64,000 nucleotides of DNA, taken from positions 3,495,001-3,559,000 of the forward strand of contig WPIO01000035.1 in the NCBI GenBank assembly GCA_009760855.2, read 5' to 3'. A model generated the notes under the pieces. The model did not search any database and had not been told where the DNA came from. It saw nothing but the letters and a program-made list of their open reading frames with translations. The DNA is from Cristatella mucedo. Its lineage: Eukaryota > Bryozoa > Phylactolaemata > Cristatellidae. The translations under genes and the position numbers were made by a program. Shown one piece after another: positions 1,425 to 62,542 of this stretch (the first letter of the stretch is position 1; the number at the start of each line of letters is the position of its first letter).

Positions 1425-1429
1425 GGGAT
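1425..1429. repeat. Target-site duplication, left copy (GGGAT)
   Basis: These five bases directly before the 5' LTR are identical to the five after the 3' LTR. They mark the insertion site and show that the element inserted as a unit. Confidence 0.9.
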
Positions 1430-1706
1430 TGTAGTTTGAGTGTATGCCGGCTCCTCTAATGAGCCTGTGATGTGGCATGGACACCGGCCGGTAACCCCTG
1501 GTGGCCAGATGGTGAATTCACCATCAGGGTCGGCCACTGCACAGTTGTGGTCCTCGATGAATCATCGGGGTCAACCAGAGAAGTGGAGAAGGAAAGAGAC
1601 TCAAGAGTGAGAAGGGACGAAGGCAGTCGTGTGTCTTGCCGCTCTGTGCCTTGTACAATAAACCGTTGGCGTTGTTCTGGGCCAGCGTTTTGTATGCCGA
1701 ACCACA
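1430..1706 (+). repeat. 5' LTR
   Basis: This LTR opens TGTAGTTTG and closes CCGAACCACA. An AATAAA polyadenylation signal lies at 1657-1662, near the expected R/U5 region. An 18-bp perfect palindrome (GATGGTGAATTCACCATC) sits at 1508-1525. It differs from the 3' LTR at perhaps 20 positions by eye, so the insertion is old enough for the LTRs to have diverged. No clear TATA box was found. Confidence 0.9.
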
Positions 1707-2253
1707 AGCTATTTCGTGGGATGGAGCCGATGACGCCATGGGAGATGTCTTGTGCAGCGTCCCTAGGCTTATTTGGCTTCGGAGACTTCGCTGGCTTGCT
1801 GCTGAACTTCGAGAGGGAGATCGAGAAAAGTGGCTACAAACAGAGTGAGTGCCACTTGTTTTTGCTCCTTGCGATGCAAGGCGGGCCTTCACGTTTGCCT
1901 CGGGGCTCCCGCAGGAAGTTCAGGATGACTATGCCAAGCTTCGTGAGGCTCTAGTGAGGGCATTCACCTCGCCGGCCGGTAGAGCGAGATTGCTGCACGC
2001 TGATCGGGTAAAGGCTGGTCGGACTGAGAGGGCCGACAGGAGCGACCGGAAGCGGCAGCAGCGATCGCCGACTGTGTGCCGGGCGACAGAGGTTTGTCAG
2101 GCTGCCACGCCGTGGTGGTAGGCAACGGCTATCAAAGCGGTGACGGTTGGTCAGGCTGTGATGGTGTTCCACGAAGCAACGGCTTTGTGCGAGGCAACGG
2201 TCAGCGGTGTGGCTGAGGCGACGGAGAGTGAGACGGTGCACGGAGAGGCGGCG

Positions 2254-2565
2254 GCGTCCGCGTGGAAGGCGGCGAAGTCTGCGTGGAAGGCGGCGGCGTC
2301 TGCGTGGAAGGCGGCGGCGTCCGCGACAGAGTCGGCGGCGGCGTCCGCGACAGAGTCGGCGGCGTCCAGGTGGAAGGCGGCGGCGGCATCCGCGACAGAG
2401 TCGGCGGCGGCATCCGCGACAGAGTCGGCGGCGGCATCCGCGACAGAGTCGGCGGCGGCGTCCGCGGCAGAGTCGGCGGCATCCGCGTGGAAGGCGGCGG
2501 CGGCACCCGCGACAGAGTCGGCGGCGGCGGCATTCGCGTAAGAGTCGGCGGCGTCCGCCAGAGAG
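2254..2565 (+). repeat. GC-rich coding minisatellite inside the gag frame
   Basis: These are tandem variants of two codon blocks, one of 24 bp encoding AAASATES and one of about 21 bp encoding AAASAWK. The copies keep frame despite expansions, except where the TAA stop at 2539-2541 has arisen. The repeats give very long spurious open frames on both strands. Confidence 0.85.
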
Positions 2566-2636
2566 GTAGTGGCCGGCGATGCAGCGAAAGCCATGAAGGT
2601 GACGTTGGCCTGCGACCAGCCTGTGGGCTGTGACGC

Positions 2637-2820
2637 GGCACAGGCAGGAAAGTGTATGCAGACCGAAGAGTCTGCACAGGCCGGAGAGGCTGTGCAGACT
2701 GAAGAGTCTGCACAGGACGGAGAGGCTGTCCAGGAGGGAGAATCTGTGCAGGCCACAGAGATTGCTCAGGCTGGAGAGACTGCCCAGGTTGGAAAGGGTA
2801 CGCAGGACGGAGAAGCAGCT
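2637..2820 (+). repeat. 18-bp coding repeat (xAQxGE units)
   Basis: About ten 18-bp units encode hexapeptides such as SAQAGE, AVQTEE, SAQDGE and IAQAGE. They lie in the same frame as the upstream Ala-rich block. Units differ by point changes, and no unit breaks the frame. Confidence 0.85.
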
Positions 2821-3062
2821 GCGTATATCGGAGACGCGGCGGCAGAATCGGCAGAGGCGGATGGAGCGACGGCGGTTGAGGTCCGAAAAACCGTGGCTGT
2901 GGACGTCAGCTCGATGACGATGGCTGGTGGCTCACGTTGCCGGCTAGTCGCAAAAGGCCGTGCACCAGCTTGCCTCTTGCGATCAGCCGTCAGGTAGACT
3001 GTGGGGTTAGCTATTGATGTTAGCTGCTATTTCGATGATGTGTAGGGTCTAGTTTTTATCGT

Positions 3063-3112
3063 TTATTGCTGCTTAGATAGGCTCGTTCATTGCTGCATAG
3101 ATAGGCTCGTTC
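3063..3112 (+). repeat. Short tandem duplication before the 3' LTR
   Basis: A 24-bp unit containing TAGATAGGCTCGTTCA occurs twice in tandem with one mismatch. It lies in the untranslated 3' part of the LTR element interior. Confidence 0.8.
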
Positions 3113-3181
3113 ATGTTGCCCTGTACATTGCAGCTACGTGTGTAGGTGCTGCAAACTTATGACCTTGAGGTCGAGGGGGCG

Positions 3182-3459
3182 TGTAGTTTGCTTGTATGTC
3201 GGCTCCTCTAATAAGCCTGTGATGTGGCATGGACACCGGCCTGTAACCCCTGGTGGCCAGATGGTGAATTCACCATCAGGGTCGGCCACTGCACAGTTGT
3301 GGTCCTCGATGAATCATCGGGGTCAACCAGAGGAGTGGAGAAGGGAAGAGACTCGAGTGTGAGAAGGGGGCGAAGGCAGTCGTGTGTCTTGCTGCTCTGT
3401 GCCTTGTACAATAAACCGTTGGCGTTGTTCTGGGCCAGCGTTTTATATGCCGAACCACA
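3182..3459 (+). repeat. 3' LTR
   Basis: Same termini as the 5' LTR (TGTAG to ACA). It has an AATAAA at 3410-3415 and the same 18-bp palindrome at 3260-3277. It is immediately preceded by a purine-rich tract and followed by the GGGAT duplication. Confidence 0.9.
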
Positions 3460-3464
3460 GGGAT
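3460..3464. repeat. Target-site duplication, right copy (GGGAT)
   Basis: Identical to 1425-1429, with no base between it and the 3' LTR. Confidence 0.9.
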
Positions 3465-4750: not shown

Positions 4751-5178
4751 ACCCCACTTGAGTTTTATAGACTCCTAAATTAGACTTGACAGGTTGGTGT
4801 GCATTGCAACATTAAGGACGCTGACTTTGTGAGCCACTAATACGAGTCCCAAAGAGATATCTGACTTACAGCAAAGTGTGTGAATGCAACTGCACTACTT
4901 TGGTATCTCAAAAAACTGAATTATGAACTCGTGGTGAAATCAAATTGAGGACATTTTTTCTAGAGTCTAAGCATTTCTTCCCCTTCTCTTGCATGGTGCT
5001 GCACTGCGTTCATAACGACTACAGTTACGCTTATTCAAGACAGTATGCTTCTTGGCGGATGCAATAAGGAATATTAAAATGCAGTCCGAAAGAAGATATC
5101 TAAAATAGCAGCACAAAATAATGACCGTGACTTGAGTCACTCCATGACCTACTTCCATCATAAAGGAGCCTGATAGAA
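4751..5178. other. No gene recognised
   Basis: AT-leaning sequence with no motif, repeat or convincing coding frame noticed. Confidence 0.4.
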
Positions 5179-6265
5179 TAATAATAATAATAATAGACTG
5201 AATAAATAGTCCTCAGATAACTCAATCTCTTTCTTGGCGCTTTAAATTAGCTGCAAAGAAAACACGATCGAATGGTTGATGGTAACATGCTCAATAAACA
5301 GGAAGTATAACATGGTTAGGGTGACGTGCACAGGGTCAGTGTGCAAGTGTGGTTAGTGGCAGCAGGCACAGTGTCAGTGTCAGCACGCATAAGCATGTAA
5401 AGGACAAATCTCAGTGACCCACTAAATGCTGTCTTAAATTGGTGCCTTTTAGCTTATTTTCAGTGGCGTCATGTCAGGGGATGTCGTTGAGCAAGTCGGG
5501 AGTGAGTTCCAGGCTCTGGGAGCATATAAACTAAAGGCGTGATCTCATAACGATTTGAGGTTTGTGCGAGGTATAGGTTAACAGTTAGTTTCCGAAAAGC
5601 AGGTGGTACGATGCTTGGCCTTGTGGGGGAGTAGATCTTACAGATAGGCTGAAGCCAACCAATAAAGGGACCTAAAAGTGAGCAACAAATCCTTGAAGTT
5701 GATCCATTTTCTAACTGGGAGCCAGTTCAGGTCGGTGAGAAGTTTTACAATATGGCAACTTCAACACTCACAACAGACAAGCCTAGCTGCACAGTTTTGA
5801 ACCTGCTTTAAGTGCGTGATTGCACGTGGCTGTAGACCAGCAAGCAGTGAGTTAAAGAAGTGAAGACGGGATGTCATAAATGCACGGACCAACCAACATG
5901 TCAACCAACATATCTAAACAACCCCAAATTATTGTAATGTGATATAGCTGAAAGTAGACAGACTTTATGGTAGAGCTGATTTAGTCGGCTAAAGAATGGT
6001 CACTTTGGAAAAAGACACCGTGATTTCATGCAGATTTAACAGGAGGTATGCTGGCAGATTCAATTCTGAGCGTCAGCCTTTCCAATTACCAAATCCCATT
6101 TGGTTTGCTCATAACGAGTAAGTTTGTTTTATCATAATTTAATTTGGGAAAATTTGCTGCCGTCCATCTGCGGATGTCATCAGTATGTGCAGCAATGGAG
6201 TTGAGAGAATGCGAGGTGCTCGAAGGCTGGGATTAATCAAAGCAAAGATACAACTGGCGTTTCTT
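5179..6265 (-). mobile_element. LINE-A copy, 3' part, decayed
   Basis: An antisense copy that starts, on the plus strand, with an (ATA)n tail and the terminal hairpin region. It then runs through the 3' UTR and C-terminal coding region, parallel to the copy at 46-47.4 kb. Shared strings include GGTACGATGCTTGGCCT and CAAGCCTAGCTGCA. It ends upstream of the region encoding the catalytic YADD motif. Frames are broken throughout, and one side of the terminal hairpin is lost. Confidence 0.85.
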
Positions 6266-11549: not shown

Positions 11550-11636
11550 GAGAAGTTTACTTTTATGCTGTGAAGCTGCTCTTGGGTATTTTTTTAAATA
11601 CCCAAGAGCAGCTTCAGAGCACAAAGTAAACTTGTC
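11550..11636. other. 87-nt foldback, pre-miRNA-like hairpin
   Basis: The core is a perfect 21-bp stem, 11571-11591 with 11596-11616, closed by a four-T loop. Pairing continues outward for about 18 more base pairs with three mismatches and one bulge, to 11550 and 11636. Length, small loop and imperfect lower stem resemble an animal miRNA precursor. A recent inverted duplication or the joined ends of a small MITE would look the same. Either strand could be the transcribed one. Confidence 0.6.
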
Positions 11637-27829: not shown

Positions 27830-28128
27830 TCAGACTTCATTTATGATCGTCTATTTAGGACAGCATTTAGTGGGTCCCTGTGATTCGTCCTTGATGTGCT
27901 TATGCGTGCTGACACTGTGCATGCTGCCACTAACCACATTTGCATGCTGACCCTGTGCATGTCACCCCTAACCATATTATTCATTTCGTTTGTTTTTCAA
28001 GCATGATTTTACTTACCATTCAATTGCATTTCACTTTACAACAAATGTAAAGCACCTAGAGAGAGATTAAGTTCTCTGAGGGCGCTTTATCAAGTGAATT
28101 ATTATCATTATTATTATTATTATTATCG
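27830..28128 (+). mobile_element. LINE-A 3' end, second copy in tandem
   Basis: Begins with the last codons of the ORF (frame reading RLFRTAFSGSL, as in the intact copy), then the full 3' UTR, hairpin and (ATT)n tail. It has the same orientation as the copy 200 bases upstream. The 60-200 bases between the two copies are not LINE sequence. Confidence 0.9.
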
Positions 28129-30478: not shown

Positions 30479-30674
30479 AACCTCGTGTACTCTAACCTCG
30501 TGTACTCTAACCTCTTGTACTCTAACCTCATGTACTCTAACCTCGTGTACTCTAACCTCGTGTACTCTAACCTCGTGTACTCTATTACTCGTGTACTCTA
30601 ACCTCGTGTACTCTAACCTCGTGTACTCTAACCTCGTGTACTCTAACCTCGTATACTCTAACCTCGTGTACTCT
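30479..30674 (+). repeat. 15-bp minisatellite, about 13 units
   Basis: Tandem units of AACCTCGTGTACTCT. Ten units match exactly, three carry single changes (CTTGT, CATGT, GTATAC), and one 16-bp variant begins ATTACTCG. There are no spacers, so it is not a CRISPR array. Confidence 0.95.
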
Positions 30675-30682
30675 ATTACTCG

Positions 30683-32209
30683 ATCAACTTTAAATCCCGA
30701 ATCGTCTATGCTAAACCCTTAAAAAAATCAGTATGCGACTGCTACGGTGGCTGTTTTACCTGAGAACATTTGTCTCGCACTTCATTTTTACAAAAGCTCG
30801 ATCCAGCCCAAAAATTTTACTTGACTTCATGGTTGCACTTTAATCTGATGTGACTATGCCTGAATACAAGCCCAAGCATGCCCATAACCAAGCAAGAAAA
30901 GGGCCATGGTGGCATCGCGACTCTGATAATGTTATGACTTCTAAACTGAAGCAAATTCCTATGTATTATTATATTCTGCACAAGAAGGAGGCATTTTTCC
31001 TGATCAATTTCGCAATAGGGACAACTGCACAGGTAGAGATATTAATCTCACATCTCGAGCCAAAATGAGTAATAGCACGGACAACAGCAAAAATTAATTC
31101 ACGCTCGCTACTTAATTGGCTCAGACTTCACTTTAGAGACTAGGTATTCTTAAGTTTTCACGCTAAACAGATTCCAGACACGATATCAATGTGCCTTTTT
31201 GGGTTGGAGCTAACTACTGCAGGAGAAAGTATGTATTCTCAAGTTATGGCACGATTTCCACCTACCATCCTTAGAGTATAGTCTCTTGCTAAATTTAGCA
31301 CCCCAGAAGCTCGTTGGCTTCTAGGCTGAGGGGATATTAGCCTCTTTGCAACATTAGAATACATTGAATTCCACGATTTTCATATACGTCGTTTCACGAT
31401 ATCCTCTGTCAATATGCGAGATAACGTCTCTGTTCAGCTCTTCCCTAGTGGTCGTATGCAGGACCGACAACAATCCAAGTGACGGACGTGGCTCTTTCCG
31501 GCGAGAGGGCGCGTCTACCTTTGCTAGCACCCAAGAAAGTTCGCTCACTGAATTGGTAAGCCGTCATACCTCCATTGTGCAGCACCTTCGTACTACATCG
31601 AGGGATTGAGATGTTCTTCCGGACTACTACACTTGCAGGTGGCTACACTTGTGAGCGCTACCCTACATATCCAACTTTATCGCTTCGCAAGTGTGACCTC
31701 TCACCAATAACTCCTTAACAAATTGTTAACTAGGCGTCCCTTAATCTAAATTGAAATCCTTTCGTGATCGTGTCGTCACCTCACATGCACTAAAGTCCTG
31801 GGAATTGCTTGTTGTTATGGTCACTGTCTTTAATGTCCTTCCATTAATTACGTATCGGCTTGGTCTGACACGCCTGTCGACATTAAGTTATCATTCGTAC
31901 CCATGAGCATGTCTTTTTTGTTACGGCGGGCTTTGTGGAAATAACTGTTAACGGTACAGTAAAAGGCGTCAGTCGTTGATGCTACGAATCGGAGGGACAT
32001 TCGTGTTTGCTTAAGCATGAGTTCCTAAGCATGATGCTTGCTTGCTTTGAGATACCTACGATGCTTGCGGATGCCTAGCTTGGCTCTAGCGCTTGTTGGC
32101 TTATTCACATGTCGCTCGTTACAAAGTGCATGGATGAAGAATAAGTGCTGCTTACAGGGTACTGTACAAGCCGTCTATTGTTCTTATTCGGTACTGTAAA
32201 CATGATCTA
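30683..32209. other. No gene recognised
   Basis: The minus frame 31354-31548 and plus frame 31364-31609 overlap, and neither shows a known domain. Confidence 0.4.
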
Positions 32210-32958
32210 TAAAATTTCTAAAATGTGGGCTCGTTTAGACGGAGATAACATATCTAAGCTGGTACACGCATTTTTTATATCCCTCCGTGACTTTTGTAAC
32301 TCACTGCTTGCTGTGCAATCAGGCACTTACAGCTTGTGCAAAATTCTGCAGCTAGGATTGTCTGCCGTGAGCGTCGCAGCTGCCACATCACACCACTTCT
32401 AACCGACCTGCACTGGCTCCCAGTCAAGCAACTCATCGCCTTCAAGGTTTTGTTACTCACTTTCAGGTCCCTTCATTTTTTAGCTTCAGCTTACTTATCA
32501 GATCTACTGCTCCACCAGGCAAATCATTGTACCACCCGCCTTTTTGAATCCAACTGTTTACCTATACTTTGTAAAAACCTCAAATCCTTTGGAGACCGTG
32601 CCTTTAATTCGCATGCTACCAAAGCATGGAACTCACTCCCGACTACTGTTAAGACATCTCCTGACTTGACTACATTTAAAAAGAAAATAAAAACGCATTT
32701 ATTTATCCCAGCATTTAGTTGGTCCCTGTGATTCGATCTTTGCGTGCTTATGCATGCTGCTCTGTGCATGTTACCACTAAACATACTTACATCCTGACCC
32801 TGTACATGTCACTCCTAACCACGTTATTTTTGTTTTTAAATTGAGCATGCTACCACTAACCAGTCAATCATACTTCCCTTCCAGCAAATATAAAGCACCT
32901 AGAAATATTTTGAGTTCACAAAGGGTGCTTTACTAAGAGTGTTATTATTATTATTATA
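32210..32958 (+). mobile_element. LINE-A copy, C-terminal ORF and 3' end
   Basis: 5'-truncated copy starting in the post-catalytic region. 32336-32731 is open and encodes QNSAARIVCRERRSCHITPL, LHWLPVKQLIAFKVLLLTF, a GDRAFNSHATKAWNSLP segment and a terminal KTHLFIPAF, all diagnostic of the L2-clade C-terminus. A frameshift near 32335 separates it from the upstream piece. The 3' UTR, a hairpin with outer stem GCACC/GGTGC and an (ATT)n tail follow. This C-terminal domain has no assigned catalytic role. Confidence 0.9.
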
Positions 32959-45987: not shown

Positions 45988-47478
45988 TTAATGATAATAT
46001 TAATATTATTAATGTACTTGATAAAGCGCCCTCAAAGAACTTAATCTCTTTCTAGGCGCTTTACATTTGCTGCAAAGGGAAATGCAATTGAATGGTAAGT
46101 AAAATCATGCTTAAAAAAATGAATAACATGGTTAGGGGTGACATGCACAGGGTCAGCCTGCAAATGTGGTTAGTGGCAGCATGCACAGTTTCAGCACGCA
46201 TAAGCACATCAAGGACGAATCACAGGGACCCACTAAATGCTGTCCTAAATAGGTGTGTTTTTAGGTTCCTTTTAAATGTGGTCACGTCAGGGGATGTTCT
46301 GACGCAGGTCGGGACGGAGTTCCGAGCTTTGGGAGCATATGAACTAAATGCACGGTCTCCAAAGGATTTAAGGTTTGCATGAGGTATTTCTAGACTGTTG
46401 GATTCCGAAAAGCGGATGGTACGATGCTTGGCCTGATGTGGTAGTATATCTGACAGATAGGCTGGAGCCATAGAATGAAGTGACCTAAAAGTGAGCAACA
46501 AAACCTTGAAGTCAATCCGTAGCTTGACTGGTAGCCAGTGCAGGTCGGCGAGAAGTTGAGTAATGTGGCAACTGCGACGCTCACGACAGACAAGCCTAGC
46601 TGCAGAGTTTTGCACCAGTTGCAATCGCCTGATCGCACATGCTGGTAGGCCAGTAAGCAATGAGTTGCAGAAGTCGAGACAGGATGTCACGAATCCATGG
46701 AGCATCTTGGACGTGGTATGCTTATCTAAACAAGCCGAAGTTTTAGCAGTGTTATGAAGCTGAAAATAGGCAGATTTGACTGTGGATCTGATGTGGTCGT
46801 CTAGCGAGAGGTTGCTTTGGAATATGATACCTAGATTTCGAGCTGATTCGACAGGAGGTATGCTGGCTGAGCCAATTTTGAGAGACAGACTATTCAATCT
46901 CTGAATCACACTGGGTTTGCCCATAACTAAGTTAGTTTTATCATCGTTTAGTTTTAAAAAATTTGCTGCCATCCATGTGCAGATATCATCAATGCATGCA
47001 GCAAGTGAGTTGAGAGAATTTGAGGTGCTCGAAGGCTGGGAGGGATCAAAGCAAAGGTACAACTGAGTGTCATCCGCATAGAAGTGAAAGCCTAGATTTC
47101 GCTTGGCAATCATATCAGCAAGAGGGAGAGTATAAACCGTGAAAAGAAACGGACCTAGCACGGAGCCCTGAGGTACTCCATATTTCAGAGGTACTTCAGA
47201 TGATCTTTGTCCATTCACGTCAATACTCTGGAGTCTCCCACTGAGACATGATTTGAACCATTGTAGAGCAATGCCAGTGATGCCCAGGCGAGATGAGAGG
47301 CGCTCTAGAAGAATTTTCTGATCGATGGTGTCAAAAGCTGCCAAAAGATCGAGCAAAACAAGCAGCTTGACTTGTGCTACCATCAGATAATTATGAATAA
47401 AAGATTCACGAATGAGCCTCTCAGATCTGTGAGACATGGGGAACCTGCACTGCGAGGGAAATCTGAAATATATCTCTG
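45988..47478 (-). mobile_element. LINE-A copy, best preserved in the window
   Basis: Antisense insertion of about 1.5 kb. The tail (ATT/AAT)n and terminal hairpin lie at 45988-46075, the 3' UTR extends to 46219, and the coding region to about 47478. It is 5'-truncated inside the N-terminal part of the reverse transcriptase. It serves here as the reference for the other LINE-A copies. Confidence 0.95.
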
Positions 47479-47485
47479 GTTTCAC
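46220..47485 (-). CDS. LINE-A reverse transcriptase, 5'-truncated but open (421 codons)
   Basis: This would be the reverse transcriptase part of an L2/CR1-type LINE ORF2, which copies LINE RNA into DNA at a nicked target. Motifs in order: LLDLLAAFDTID (motif A, catalytic Asp, near residue 50), GVPQGSVLGP (motif B), HFYADDTQLYL (motif C; YADD codons at 47069-47080), FLKLNDDKTNLV (motif D), RNLGIIFQSNLSLDDHI (motif E). The C-terminal domain follows with ADLHWLPVK, FKVLLLTFRSLH, APAYLSDIL and GDRAFSSYAPK, ending FSGSL. The APE endonuclease and N-terminal part are absent, so it cannot move by itself. The frame has no stop or shift, unlike all other copies here, implying a younger insertion. The start codon used by the frame is probably not biological, because the copy begins mid-domain. 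Confidence 0.9.
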   Translation of the reverse strand: MKPEIYFRFPSQCRFPMSHRSERLIRESFIHNYLMVAQVKLLVLLDLLAAFDTIDQKILLERLSSRLGITGIALQWFKSCLSGRLQSIDVNGQRSSEVPLKYGVPQGSVLGPFLFTVYTLPLADMIAKRNLGFHFYADDTQLYLCFDPSQPSSTSNSLNSLAACIDDICTWMAANFLKLNDDKTNLVMGKPSVIQRLNSLSLKIGSASIPPVESARNLGIIFQSNLSLDDHIRSTVKSAYFQLHNTAKTSACLDKHTTSKMLHGFVTSCLDFCNSLLTGLPACAIRRLQLVQNSAARLVCRERRSCHITQLLADLHWLPVKLRIDFKVLLLTFRSLHSMAPAYLSDILPHQAKHRTIRFSESNSLEIPHANLKSFGDRAFSSYAPKARNSVPTCVRTSPDVTTFKRNLKTHLFRTAFSGSL

Positions 47486-50400
47486 AGTTTTACCTCAGTG
47501 TGCAAAATATGAATTTCTCAGTTAAAATCTTGATATAATATAAATCATTAAATATCGAAATATTATTAAGGGATTATCGACAAAGAAATCAAGCAGTGAA
47601 GGTAGCAATTTAATAGATATAAATTTGATTGTTGTGACAGCTCTCGTCAAAAATTAAAAACAAATTTAACTAATGGATACTTGGTAAATTGATGCATTTC
47701 ATTTACTGCTATGTTGCAGGTCTGAAATATCGTTGGCAAAACATGAATTTGTTGTACAAAAGCGCAAAAATTTAAACAAATTGAGGTACGAAACCAAACG
47801 CATGGATAGGAATGGATTTATGCTACCATTCATACCGGGTCAGGCGAAATCAGATTCCAGTGAACCGCAAGCTACAAAAAAAGAGTGAGGAGACCATGAC
47901 GGAAGCAGCAGGCAAAGTAAACTGAAGGAATGCGAATAAAGTCCGCAGAATTTCCCTACGCTTCTCCACAACGGAAGGGAAGGCGCAATTCGCAGATAGC
48001 GATTGTTGTCAGTAAGCTCTACCAGTTTCTGACAGTATGCATAATGGGTCCCGGCCGTGCCATTAGAAATAACTACTGCCGTAGTAAGACTGTATCTCAG
48101 AAGGCGAGAAAGTCTATACGATGGTTTGCGTATTTATATCGTGAAACTTATAACTGCCAATGTTAAAGATACCAAATTTTCTCAATCAAAAGAAAACTAG
48201 ATATTCAATCGGACTTCTTTTCCAAGACGCTTCCAAATTGAAAGCAATGGTCCGCACATAGCTGGCGATCCGAACCGTAGGATGCCGTTTGCTGTTCCTG
48301 TTACAAGTTGTTTGGTAGGACAAAAATGAGACTAGCGTCTAAGAGCTGCAGAAGTTGGTAATGCAAGAGTTAGACCTTGGAGGACCATGAGAAGTCAGGG
48401 ACCACAGGCAGCACAATATGGACTGGACAGAGCTTTAGTTGCACCTTAAAGTCTGTCCAACCCTAGGCAAATAGACGCTAGTTTTAGTAAAGAAAGACAG
48501 TTTATTTCCTCTCCGTGTTAGAACCATCTTAGCAATCGTACCGTTTTAGGATTTGGGGATATGGCCCTTTGTATGAATTTTGATAGGCTCTACTTCCATA
48601 AAACGGAAATTTGCTCTTAGTGAAACTAAATTACTTACAAAGTCCGATTCCAGGTTGGCTGAATACATGGTGCGATCGGAATGCATAAAGAGTGATTCAT
48701 TTTCTGGAGCTTGAAAGTAAAAATAGCTGATCACTCTCATCTCGGATGAAATTCAGAAAGAGATCACAGATCGCACAAAAAAATTCTAAATGATACAGTA
48801 TTATATTGGATTGCGCACCAGATATCATTCACATCGTGCAAATAATCACGATCCTTCACGTCATGGACTTCAAAAACGCAAGAAGGTAATTAAAATATAA
48901 TTTCAAGAAAATTGGTTCAAAATCTAATTATTATGAATGGTACTTTTACGATGACGCAAATTTTAAAACTGGATCGGAAATTTTGATTATTTTAACGTTA
49001 AATAAAAAATGATTATTCAAGCCATACATAACCCGGATTTAAACAGGAAGCAACAAATGTACAAATAAATATTTACCGATCTCTGCATCACACGCAACTG
49101 GTATTTTGGCTTGTAGACCTCGATAGATCGAGGGCATGTGTGAAGCTTGTTGAGATGCATGCTTGTGACTTTAATAAAGCTTTATTTTAAGTGTAGCCTG
49201 ATTTTTCTTTTAAATTCCATAACTCGGGTAATACCTAATTTATTAGATTAAATTTTTTTATTTGCGAGGTCAGATCTGGTTTTCCCACATGAGGCAAGAT
49301 TATTTTTAATTTTGGCTGTATGCATTTTGCTCTGAAAGTCTACTTTTTCAGAAAATAAACCTCCGGAATACTTGATAACGAAGCACAGCAAAACATACGT
49401 GAAAGTCGTCAGAATATCCGATCACGTTTCTAACACAATCATCTTTTGAAAGTTACCGTAAGCAAATATTCTATTGTCATACCAAGTTTATAAGTAATTT
49501 ATTTACATTTCCCCTTAAAGAGTACTTGTTTATGGTTTCTGAAAATGGTTGACTCAAGAATAACCGAACTTTTTGAGTTACTATTGGAGAAGCTCGATCA
49601 GTTGGAGCTGAACCTGACATATTGCAGTTGCCAAGCTAATGATAATGGCAGCAACATGGCGGGCAAATACTCCCATGTTCAAGCATGAATTTTAAAGATG
49701 AAGTCGCTAGCATTATTTTCTCCTTGCATCAATTAAAATTTTACCGTTTTTGTTACCTGCGATACAGCAAGCACGTAGGTAACTGCAATATTCTTCTTTG
49801 GTTACTTGTAGCCAGTCTGTGCATTTTTCCGCTATTAACTTATGGGTTGAATGCATTGAAGGAGTTCTACTTCATGACTGTGAACTAATCATTAGATAAT
49901 CGCTGGTAATAGCGTAAAAGCGCATTGATACTAAACCAAGGACATCCACGTGATGCTATTAAGCATTTGTGATGCTTCCAAAGGCAAATATTTCAAGACG
50001 TACTCTGAGGCATTAGTAGGAGAAATTGCTTCTTTCTGATCCAACTGTATTCGAAAATACGGCACGATGTGATAGGAGATATCAATACTATAGATATCAA
50101 TAATCGGTCAGCAAGACACTAGAGGAAGAGAACATGAAAATTGAAAGCACCCAGGATCTTTTCAGAGACACTCGGTGATTGCTATGCGGCTGACCCATAA
50201 AGCGGTACTTTCTTCTTATCAGCAGTCGATGCAGTAGCAAACTTATGCGAACAGCAAGACATAATAGCCGAGAAACCAGCTGAAATAGACCGAAGTGTGT
50301 CGCGTCATTTCGGATATGAAGATTGAGACGACCTTATCGTCTATGGTTTGCACAAATTCTTGAAATCTTTGAGTATTTAAAATACTCGTTTGGTGGAGCA

Positions 50401-53212: not shown

Positions 53213-54748
<1,536 letters not shown>

Positions 54749-55145
54749 CCGCATCCTAGACGGTGGGATTGAGGTCCACCGCTGTTATACAACATCTTAA
54801 GACCAGCTGACGACTCGGACATTCAGTCACCGCCATTCCATAGCTTTCTCGACTCGTACGACCCGCTTGTGCTTCTAACAGACTCTTTGACGTGTGAGGC
54901 GACGCCAGCTCGCGAACAGGCAGCACGATATGCCTTAAATGCCTCGTAGAAAGCGTGACTACAGCATTCCTTGCTGCTTGGGGGGTCGCGTACGTAAATG
55001 CACGCAGATAAACGAGTGCGCATCGTTGAAGCTATGCTTGGTTTAGCGTAGCATCAAGCTCAGTTTACTCTCCTCGCTAGCTCCGAGTTCCAAATGCTCG
55101 GCGTTTAGCCGCGGTCGAGACGGGCCACTTGAAAAATCTTCGCAG
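54749..55145. other. No gene recognised
   Basis: Transition from the CT tract to the CpG-rich region; no supported feature. Confidence 0.4.
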
Positions 55146-56500
55146 TTACGTCCGCGACATCGCTCGGTAGCTCAGGTGGCAGCTAGGTTGGCGCTGCGAC
55201 CGCCCCCGGCAGAGGACGCGGGCAGTTTGTGCCTTGCCACGGCGGCGGCGGCGGCGACGGCTTGGCGAGTGAGCGCTCAGCACGGCGACGACTTCAGAAG
55301 GCCGTGCGGGGCTTGGCGTTCCGCTGCATGGCACTTTCGCCTTCGATGCCAGACCGCTGAAGGAGCTTGACTGCTTAGCTAGACTGCCCCGGACTGCCGA
55401 AGGACGGCTCCGCCGGCTCCGCTCTGGCGGATCTGGCGCCGCGCGGAGGAGGAAGAGACGCTCCTCCTCCTCCGCGCGGCCGCTGGCGAGGATTAGGGCC
55501 GCGAAGCGAGCGCCCGCGACAGGCCGAGCGGCGCCCGCGAGGCGGTCATTGGCATCGATGCGGTCGGGCAGTTCGAGCTTAATTGATGCGCTCGTCGCGT
55601 CCTCCGCCGACGACGGGGCGTCATCCTTCGAGCCGCAGCGCTCGGCGTAAGCTGCCGCCTCGGTCACGCGCGATTTCCTTGCGACCGCAGGCTTAGGAGA
55701 GCGCCGCGCCTAGTTCGCGCCGGTCGGCACCTCGCTCCGAACGCCGGCGGGGCCGGCGGCGGCGCCGGCGGCGTAAGAGGAAGCGTCGCGCAGCTCGCGG
55801 GCGCCCGCCGGTGCGCTCGGCGGCGGCGGCCAGGGCAGCGACGGCAGCGGCGGCAGCGGCTACGCAGTACGACGATGACGAGAGTTTCTGCTTGTGTTTC
55901 ACGAGCTGTCAGCCAGTGAGGTGGCAGAGCGCTGAGGCATGCGATATCTGCAGCCGATGAGGAATGGAGCGATTCGTATAGTTGAGTGCAGCTGCTACGC
56001 GAGCTGTCTATTACAGGCAGTCGCCTGGCTTTTGCCAAGCGAACGGCATCTTCTTTGCTTCCGAGACGCCTGGCTTCATCGTCCCGAGGAAACCGCGGCC
56101 GCACCCAATGTAACTTCCGCTGTCGGCTGGCGCGATCCGTAAACACCTCGGCGGTGGGCGAGCCCTCTTAGGCTTATTACCGCTTCAGTAATGCGACGGG
56201 ACAGGCGCGCCTAGATCCGTTACAGCTTAGCGAAGCTTTGGAAATGATTGGATGCAGTCGGCATGAACTAGCCGCGTTCGCTCAATCGTAAGAATAGGGC
56301 CGCTGCCCAGCCCCTTCCGCGGCCTGCCCACCCCCACCCCCACCGCCTGCCTGGCAGCACGGTCGAAGTCTGCCTCGCCCGTCGGCTTAATTTTGGGCGC
56401 CCGTTCGGTTTCAATGCAGCAATCATTCGGCCTTCAGAGAGAGGCTGCAGTCTACATTGCACACCGAACGTCCGTGCGTCAGTGACGCGCATTTTCAAGC
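55146..56500 (-). promoter_or_regulatory. CpG-rich segment, candidate promoter or first exon
   Basis: The densest CG-dinucleotide region in the window, with (GCG)n runs near 55241-55258 and 55820-55860. Two long minus frames (55146-55667, 173 codons; 55664-56146, 160 codons) are rich in Ala, Arg, Ser and Pro. A third, 55693-55902, reads CVAAAAAAVAALAAAAERTGG. GC-rich DNA yields long frames by chance, so coding is not established. Alanine runs are also common in first exons of animal transcription factors. The minus strand is chosen only because its frames are longest. Confidence 0.3.
55438..55480. repeat. Perfect 16-bp GC-rich hairpin
   Basis: GCCGCGCGGAGGAGGA (55438-55453) pairs exactly with 55465-55480 around an 11-nt loop. 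It lies inside the CpG-rich segment, where it would be very stable in RNA. Confidence 0.8.
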
Positions 56501-56754: not shown

Positions 56755-57562
56755 GGTATCCATCAGCTCCACAGTCAAGTCTGCCTACTTTCAGCTGCAT
56801 ATCATTGCTGAAGCGTCGGGCTTGCTTAGATAGGAATATTACATCTAAATTGGTCCATAAATTTGCCATATTATGTCTCAACTTCTGTAACTCACTGTTT
56901 GCTTTTCTACCGGCGTGTGCGATCGGGTGCTTACAGTTAGTGCAAAACTCTGCAGAAAGGCTTGTCTGTTGTGAGCGTCGCAGTTGCAACATCGCACCAC
57001 TTCTCGCCGACCTGCACTGGCTCCCAGTCAAGTAATGCGTTGACTTTAATGTTCCGTCACTCACTTCTAGGTCCATTCACTCCTTGGCTCCAGCCTACCT
57101 ATCAGATCTATTTCCCCACCATGCTAAGTATCGTACCACCATCTTTTCGGAATCATTCATTTATATCTCGTACGAACTTCAGATCCTTTGGAGACATACC
57201 TTTGGTTCGTATGTTTCAAAAGTCTGGAACTCACTTTTGACTGGCGTTACGACATCACCTGACTTGACCAAATTTAAAAAGAAGCTGAAGACGCATCTAT
57301 TTATGACAGCATTTAGTGAGTCTATGTGTTTTGTCCTTTATATGTGCATGCGTGCTTAAACTGTGCATTCTTCCACTTACCATTTATGCATGCTGACCAT
57401 GTGGATGTCACCTCTAGCCACGTTATGCTTGTTGACATTCAGTATGCTACCACTAACCACTCAATCATGCTTCCTTTACAACATGTGTGTAACGTAGAAA
57501 TGTACAGCACAGAAAGAGATTTAGTTCTCTAAGGGTGGTATACAAATGTATCATTATTAATT
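56755..57562 (+). mobile_element. LINE-A copy, C-terminal region and 3' end
   Basis: 5'-truncated copy beginning near the STVKSAYFQL segment. Two open pieces remain in different frames: one to 57035, with QLVQNSAERLVCCERRSC and LADLHWLPVK, and one at 57084-57359, with APAYLSDLFPHHAKY and KTHLFMTAFSES. At least one frameshift lies near 57035-57085. The 3' UTR follows, with a hairpin region that is damaged in its outer stem, and a short ATT tail. Confidence 0.88.
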
Positions 57563-57703
57563 TTTAGAATTTCTTTACATGAGTTCAAACTAGTGGGCTG
57601 ATTCTTTTGAGTAAGACAATAATAATACAAATAATAATAATACAATAACTCTATATCGCCCTCAGCGAGCTAAACTCTCCCTTAGTACTTCACATACTTG
57701 TAT
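57563..57703. other. Short spacer with AAT repeats
   Basis: ATAATAATACAAATAATAATA near 57618 followed by a degenerate antisense LINE-tail-like string (CGCCCTCAGCGAGCTAAACTC). Probably another antisense tail remnant of about 80 bases. Confidence 0.5.
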
Positions 57704-60891: not shown

Positions 60892-61496
60892 ATTAAATAA
60901 TAATAATAATAATAATAATGCACTTGATAAAGCACCCTCAGAGAATTCAATCTCTTTCTAGGCACTATACATTTGCTGCAAAGGGAAACGCAACTGTATG
61001 GTAAGTAATATCATGCTTGATAAACAACATCGATAACATAGCTATTGGGTGACATGCACAGGGTCAGCATGCAAAGCATGAATGTGGTTAGTGGCAGCAT
61101 GCACAGTGTCAGCACGCATAAGCACATTAAGGCCGAATCTGAGGGACCCACTAAATGCTGTCCTAAATAGGTGTCTTTAATTTTCTTTTGAACGTGGTCA
61201 AGTCAGGGGATATTCTGACGCAAGTTGAGAGGGAGTTCCAGGCTTTGGGAGCATACGAACTAAATGCACGGTCTCCAAAGGATTTGAGGTTTGTACGAGG
61301 TATTGGTAAACTGTTGGCTTCCGAAAGGCCGGTGGTACGATGCTTGGCCTGGTGGGGTAGTAGATCTGAGTGATAAGTTGGAGCCAAAGAATGAGCTGAC
61401 CTACAAGTGAGCGACAAAACCATGAAGTCGATCCGTTGCTTGACTGGTAGCCAGTGCAGGTCGGCGAGAAGTGGTGTGACGTGGCAACTGCGACGA
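60892..61496 (-). mobile_element. LINE-A 3' copy nested in LINE-B (second)
   Basis: Antisense insertion of about 600 bases: (AAT)n tail, hairpin (outer stem partly wobble-paired), 3' UTR and C-terminal codons. The minus frame 61163-61423 encodes a LAPTYHSDLLPHQAKH segment, then LKSFGDRAFSSYAPKAWNSL. It splits LINE-B between motif C and the FLKLN motif. AT-rich bases at both edges (CATTAAATAA and AATAAATTA) may be the target duplication, but slippage in the tail makes this unsure. Confidence 0.88.
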
Positions 61497-61548: not shown

Positions 61549-62542
61549 ATGTCGGGAAATTTTTTGAAACTAAACTGCAATAAAATCAAACTGCTTTTCA
61601 TAGGAAACCCTGAGCGTATGGCTAGATTAGAACGATTTGCTCTTCTCATAGGTGGTGCTGCTGTGCGACCATCCCCAAGTGCCCGAAATGTATATGTTGT
61701 TTTCGACAGCTGCCCAAATTTTAAAAAGCTTTGTTTAGAAGATCTCTTCTACAGCTAGCCATCACATCCGATCCTTGTCTGCGATTAGGAGCTGTCTTCC
61801 ACGGTGGCTTGCAAAAAAGTTAACTAACTCCTTAGTTTTTTCTTGGCTTGATAATTGTAATTCCCTTTTGAATGGGCTAGCAAGAAAAGCAGCCAGGCCA
61901 CTGCAAATGGCTATGCATATGGCTGCAAGGCTAGTTTTCAAGTCCCAGAGGTTTGACCACGTGTCTCATTTGCTAATAGAGCTAGGATGGCTTCCGGTTG
62001 ATCAACAGATACAGAGCGAAGTTCTTACGATGACCAACAAGGCCCGCCACGGCTTGGCTTCTCCATTCCTTGCAGAACTGCTGCACCAGTTTCAGCCTCC
62101 TAGTGCCCTCATGTCCTGCGTGGACAATAAATTAGCTGTTTCATTCCTACGCTTAAAGACCGTTGGCGACAGAAGCTTTAGCTCTGAAGGTCCTAGATTG
62201 TGGAACTCGCCTCCACAAGTCTTACGCAACGACAACTACTCTCCTGCTGCCGACTATGGCTCATCCTTTCCAGCGGTCTTGAGCTGCTACTTCCATGCCA
62301 TTCACTACTTCAACTGCTCGCCTGCCTCTGCTATACTTTTTACTTCTCTTTGTTGCGTGAGATGGAGTCCATTGGCTACCGAATGCGTACCGAAAGCCGC
62401 TTTGGCTGTGAGTGGGCTAAACAAAACTCTCCTGAGTAACACTCACATAGGCTTTGTGGAGTTACAGATGGAGATACGTTACATTAGATTACATTGTTTA
62501 GATTACATTAGATTACCTTGTTACATTAGATTACATAGGTGA
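61549..62542 (+). pseudogene. LINE-B C-terminal coding region (two open pieces)
   Basis: 61549-61758 encodes SGNFLKLNCNKIKLLFIGNP (motif D region) and SARNVYVVFDSCPNF (motif E region). 61775-62542 is open for 255 codons: a LTNSLVFSWLDNCNSLLNGL stretch, then AARLVFKSQRFDHVSHLL, ELGWLPVDQQIQSEVLTMT, ASPFLAELLHQFQP and LKTVGDRSFSSEGPRLWNSP. The two pieces are in different frames, separated by a stop near 61757. It runs past the usual coding end into the 3' terminus, so the last ~60 codons are probably not real protein. Confidence 0.8.

Follow-up and report, generated by a model that had tools for sequence, protein, structure and literature searches.

The 64-kb stretch of DNA analysed here, called the window below, contains an LTR retrotransposon of 2,030 bp (1430-3459) in which only gag-looking residues and simple repeats lie between the LTRs. 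On balance, and by a narrow preference over everything else we considered, we regard it as a single copy of a non-autonomous element that was mobilised in trans and whose gag-like start is a relic, probably of Ty3/Gypsy-like kind. What counted for this explanation is the LTR pair with its target-site duplication, the lack of any match to a gag or pol family and of any credible pol motif, and the presence of gag-looking residues, recognised by eye, which lie in two frames, the first of them starting 15 nt after the LTR. The features referred to in the text are the following.

1425-1429, no strand, left copy of the target-site duplication, GGGAT (sequence, BLAST)
1430-1706, plus strand, 5' LTR, 277 bp, TGTAG...CCACA, with an AATAAA signal at 1657 and an internal palindrome at 1508-1525
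1707-3181, interior, 1,475 bp
1707-1720, plus strand, 14-nt stretch from the 5' LTR to the first ATG of the gag-like frame, with TGG triplets starting at 1717 and 1722
1721-1880, plus strand, gag-like piece A (label given by eye), ATG at 1721, contains LLNFEREIEKSGYKQSE; frame open to a stop at 1952
1879-2118, plus strand, gag-like piece B (label given by eye), in another frame, contains LPQEVQDDYAKLREALVRAF; ends at TAG 2119
2223-2573, plus strand, GC-rich minisatellite, unit length 18-24 bp, rich in Ala/Ser/Glu when read in the piece-B frame, with an in-frame TAA at 2539
2638-2817, plus strand, 18-bp (36-bp) repeats, Ala/Gln/Gly/Glu-rich; frame ends at TAG 2995
3059-3114, plus strand, direct repeat of 24 bp in 2.3 copies, lying after the last stop of the tail frame and before the 3' LTR
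3173-3181, plus strand, weak polypurine-tract candidate, GAGGGGGCG
3182-3459, plus strand, 3' LTR, 278 bp (BLAST)
3460-3464, no strand, right copy of the target-site duplication, GGGAT (sequence, BLAST)

The element has both of the features by which an LTR retrotransposon is recognised, namely paired LTRs in direct orientation with TG...CA ends and a target-site duplication. The two LTRs are identical in 265 of 278 aligned columns and differ by 12 substitutions (8 transitions and 4 transversions) and one 1-nt indel. The K2P distance between them is 0.045 (4.5% diverged). With rates assumed to lie between 2e-9 and 1.5e-8 per site per year, which may not be those of the host, the insertion would be about 11 to 1.5 million years old. 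A 5-base match at exactly the spacing of the GGGAT copies occurs at only 73 of 61,960 window positions (0.12%), so that an LTR pair with equal flanks is no accident and a chance origin of the duplication is very unlikely. The LTRs with their ends, the perfect duplication, the limits of the element and the 1.5-kb interior had all been proposed in a sequence-only reading of this DNA, and we find them as described there. LTRs flanked by a short duplicated target result from the reverse transcription of an LTR-to-LTR RNA inside a Gag particle, after which integrase joins the product to DNA; the paired LTRs, the TG/CA ends and the 5-bp duplication seen here are the mark of reverse transcription and integrase-mediated insertion. 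Each LTR also carries an AATAAA signal (1657 and 3410) and the palindrome GATGGTGAATTCACCATC (1508-1525 and 3260-3277), which is predicted to form a 7-bp hairpin; the RNA fold of the palindrome region (z -1.53 and -0.90) and that of 1624-1760 (z 1.25) are unremarkable against shuffled sequences. No empty insertion site was found elsewhere in the window, and a scan for bacterial promoters and terminators, a type of scan not applicable to this element, gave no match.

The earlier statement that pol is missing is supported insofar as none is recognisable. Neither a zinc-knuckle (CCHC) nor a protease motif was found in the six frames of the interior, reverse transcriptase and integrase motifs had no credible match there, and Pfam returned no pol family (see below). 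Two matches of the six-frame scan look like chance, a lone YFDD downstream of the tail and, in a reverse frame rich in Arg, an HHCC-like one. Reverse transcriptase and integrase are beyond what the element can supply, and a working capsid probably is too, so that all three would have come in trans. We suppose that an RNA was transcribed from the 5' LTR and that its packaging, copying and integration would have been carried out by Gag and Pol that an autonomous relative at another place in the genome provided in trans. The main role of the element's own interior would then have been that of a packaged RNA spacer; the gag-like start would be a relic of the autonomous ancestor, and the minisatellites would occupy the place of the lost remainder of gag and pol.

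Since no second copy, partner or primer-binding site came to light in the 64-kb window, mobilisation in trans is something that we infer. Another copy or fragment of the LTR was absent from the window by pattern search (up to 3 mismatches) and by BLAST, and an exact 25-mer of the LTR had 0 matches in viral contigs. Pattern searches of the viral contigs gave 13 stretches for piece B, 12 for the tail and 40 for piece A, and 294 stretches were obtained with piece B in prokaryotic genome contigs, none of them confirmed; the lack of a relative in such collections says little, because they are poor places to look for animal repeats. In a comparison with the tRNA ends known to us, no primer-binding site could be recognised after the 5' LTR, where the TGG triplets at 1717 and 1722 could pair with a tRNA end, and no tRNA gene was found in the window. 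Self-priming is without support, as the longest exact complementarity of 1707-1776 to the element is 9 nt, below the limit of 10 nt. The purine-rich tract reported earlier does exist in the form of a 7-nt run, GAGGGGG, that ends 2 nt upstream of the 3' LTR, but it is weak, an uninterrupted purine run of equal length being present at 233 of 8,835 other sampled positions (2.6%); with one or two interruptions allowed it is equalled at 431 and 224 of the 8,835, respectively.

The interior had also been credited with a gag-like frame, and here our results differ: there is no single frame of this kind. The gag-looking residues amount to at most about 130 codons, divided between two frames with the change at about 1879-1880 and followed by Ala/Glu-rich minisatellites, and the piece-B frame meets stops at 2119 and 2539 before it ends at TAG 2995. 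Judged by eye, the segments 1721 to about 1880 and about 1879 to 2118 resemble the first half of a Ty3/Gypsy-type capsid domain, whereas the C-terminal half of the capsid and the nucleocapsid are not recognisable in the interior. Pfam returned no gag or pol family for any of the 16 ORFs of at least 60 codons that overlap the interior (nine searched at E up to 1 and seven at E up to 10, with HMMER filters discarding most matches above about E 0.1), nor for six shorter pieces searched at E up to 10; pieces A and B were searched separately. Among the nine ORFs all matches were to unrelated families and fell short of the curated cut-off (IRF-2BP1_2, E 0.26; Polo_box_2, E 0.038; EAD1, E 0.041), those of the trimmed pieces were of the same sort (Polo_box_2, E 0.022 and 0.061; EAD1, E 0.025), and the second group of seven interior ORFs had zero Pfam matches of any kind. 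A sequence search of the PDB with the piece-B frame yielded a single marginal match to a Programmed Cell Death Protein 5 homolog (E 0.0088), taken as chance, and none with piece A.

Single-sequence structure models of the two frames are helical and of low confidence (pLDDT 68.8 for the piece-B frame and 59.7 for the piece-A frame); as far as models of this quality go, they would agree with a capsid domain. The model of piece A had 32 matches up to E 10 among PDB folds, with 0 at E 0.001 or below and no retroelement capsid among them, three of the 32 being filovirus VP30 domains (E 5.3 to 7.7). Against viral models it had 21 matches up to E 10, 0 of them at 0.001 or better and one of them to the nucleoprotein of Manawa virus (E 5.2), and the model of piece B had 0 matches up to E 10 among PDB folds. 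These absent fold matches carry little weight because of the low confidence of the models. The Ty3/Gypsy assignment comes from resemblance by eye, and gag found no confirmation in Pfam, in PDB sequences or in the fold searches. The description of the element as capsid-bearing could not be upheld, the stretch in question being short, frameshifted and devoid of a recognisable C-terminal half or zinc knuckle; the claim of a capsid is weak, and what had been read as a capsid gene is a broken fragment at best, with simple repeats after it.

Internal deletion is a common fate of LTR elements, and the copy may be a one-off derivative of an ordinary autonomous element that lost pol and most of gag, either through template switching in reverse transcription or through deletion after insertion. 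We consider this possible, although unlikely. The gag-like part breaks off before any recognisable C-terminal half of the capsid or zinc knuckle, which is what a deletion would produce, but the gap is filled by about 0.9 kb rich in repeats (the GC content of 2122-2573 is 0.72), and a plain deletion leaves this unaccounted for. One copy cannot separate an old non-autonomous lineage from a one-off deletion. If this copy is the sole one, the element is an ordinary defective retroelement; if many copies share the interior, it becomes a further case in which helper-dependent and autonomous LTR elements divide the labour, and the question arises whether packaging gains or suffers from a truncated gag product.

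The lack of support for gag from Pfam, PDB sequence and fold searches may also be taken at face value. The gag look would then be due to chance, and the element would be LARD- or TRIM-like, with a non-coding filler containing minisatellites as its interior; the mechanism would overlap with that of our preferred explanation, from which this one differs by denying the gag relic. In favour of it, the frame of piece A stays open in 56 of 1,000 shuffles and that of piece B in 102 of 1,000. Against such a coincidence stands the arrangement of two gag-looking stretches, identified by eye, in the expected order and directly after the LTR where gag belongs, and we hold an element without any gag to be rather improbable. 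The weights that we give to the different readings overlap, because a gag-less or a semi-autonomous element would be mobilised in trans as well.

The repeat-rich tail bears on a further question, namely whether the interior was once a longer gene. GC-rich minisatellites make up much of the sequence from 2122 to about 2900, and their unit spacings are multiples of three, which would fit a coding past, although slippage of GCG triplets gives the same result. Pairwise differences between repeat units are distributed over the first, second and third codon positions as 12/0/12 for the 24-mers, 128/148/136 for the 18-mers and 8/8/9 for the 36-mers, with no excess at the third position. Within 1849-2994 the piece-B frame has 2 stops versus 10 and 10 in the other forward frames, and 15 of 1,000 dinucleotide shuffles of this region contain a forward frame with as few. 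A semi-autonomous family of the TR-GAG type could be built on this observation: a single open frame of about 425 codons (1721-2994) would have existed at insertion, its capsid-like start and Ala/Glu-rich tail would have aided RNA packaging, and the frame change and the two stops would have been acquired later. The divergence of the LTRs leads one to expect about 28 substitutions in 1721-2994 since insertion (half of 0.045 x 1,274). If about 4% of substitutions are nonsense, 28 would suffice for one or two new stops. The shuffle test, however, flatters the piece-B frame, because shuffling destroys the tandem repeats, and a reverse frame is open for 326 codons (1951-2931) over the same region. 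With neither a gag family match nor a zinc knuckle, and with repeat copies that are free of codon-position bias, a coding past of the tail is a possibility rather than a result, and we judge a family of this type to be distinctly improbable. More improbable still is a multi-copy animal LTR family whose intact members would encode a single protein, a half-capsid-like start fused to a long Ala/Glu-rich repetitive tail that replaces the C-terminal half of the capsid and the nucleocapsid, as a packaging helper acting together with the Gag-Pol of an autonomous partner; we know of no description of a gag-derived packaging helper of this type.

The layout had been likened to that of TR-GAG elements. 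Under the Inpactor rule, as given in the relevant passage of PMC6022998, these are elements with only a GAG domain (or GAG and protease), while elements with no domain are called TRIMs below 2,000 bases and LARDs at 2,000 or above. Our element shares with the TR-GAG elements of plants the LTRs and the lack of a reverse transcriptase, RNase H or integrase domain (Pfam and motif scan). The TR-GAG elements carry a recognisable GAG domain, in the active Arabidopsis example a single ORF for a GAG of 562 aa (PMC8704663, excerpt), whereas here the frame is broken and Pfam found no such domain in the ORFs and pieces of the interior. On this evidence the definition of a TR-GAG does not apply, and with 2,030 bp and no Pfam domain above cut-off the element falls just inside the LARD class of the PMC6022998 passage. 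The remark that TR-GAGs are described mainly from plants agrees with the use of the label in print, which we met in plant papers by title and, in a brown alga paper, as a phrase in the reference list; among the papers listed, judged mainly by title, we took none for a description of a TR-GAG from an animal. Non-autonomous LTR elements as such are well described in animals, and one of these keeps part of gag (PMC6466679, excerpt).

LARDs and TRIMs have LTRs and a target-site duplication around an interior without a recognisable domain, as here, with the difference that a gag-like relic may be present in our element. In the excerpts from the papers on an ant (PMC3532108) and tapeworms (PMC4558846), the TRIMs have a primer-binding site, which was not recognised here, and their mobilisation in trans is the inference of the respective authors; the LARDs of the ant paper are far longer (LTRs of ~4.4 kb) and its TRIMs shorter (under 1,000 bp). 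The mouse IAP I-delta-1, ETn, VL30 and MaLR are non-autonomous LTR elements, of which I-delta-1 keeps part of gag, and I-delta-1 and VL30 depend on the proteins of coding relatives (PMC6466679, excerpt). The same dependence is described for the D-type elements of ERVK[2-1-LTR] in cattle, which account for 85% of the catalogue presented in PMC10924933. All these are likewise non-autonomous LTR copies but belong to mammalian endogenous retroviruses, and VL30 (5.5 kb) and the cattle D-type (~6.8 kb) are longer than our element. In wheat, RLG_Sabrina and RLG_WHAM, with RLG_Wilma as partner, are non- or semi-autonomous and supply at most Gag (or Gag and protease), and in some RLG_Sabrina variants the Gag region has been swapped for unrelated sequence; RLG_Sabrina differs from our case in being a plant element with thousands of full-length copies, whose partner relations were analysed on copy populations (PMC9744471, excerpt). 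Non-autonomous LTR elements, some with partial gag, are already known in animals. Lacking the enzymes for its own movement, and with a capsid gene that is broken at best, the element looks like an ordinary parasite of a parasite and not like a new class.

The window contains other repeats as well, and Rfam gave no family at threshold. The element starts 235 bp downstream of an old repeat in its left flank (611-1194), which is 66% identical over 597 columns to 61912-62488. A LINE reverse transcriptase frame of 424 codons lies on the minus strand at 46220-47494 (Pfam RVT_1, E 1.9e-20), presumably of the CR1/L2 type of animals, which it resembles; it makes the animal genome assumed in the earlier reading likely. 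Related fragments occur near 5177-6256, 27851-28122, 32209-32957, 56761-57577 and 60893-61495; several are ~72-91% identical pairwise by BLAST, and they provide most of the strongest self-matches of the window. A (CT)n microsatellite of about 91 copies (54566-54747) adjoins a stretch rich in GC (0.585 over 54001-56000), whose minus strand carries open frames; for one of them, 55664-56167, a Pfam search with the limit set at E 0.01 gave no match. The window further contains 13 copies of the 15-bp tandem repeat AACCTCGTGTACTCT with 93% matches (30479-30675) and an imperfect palindrome of 87 bp (11550-11636) that matches its own reverse complement at 86%.
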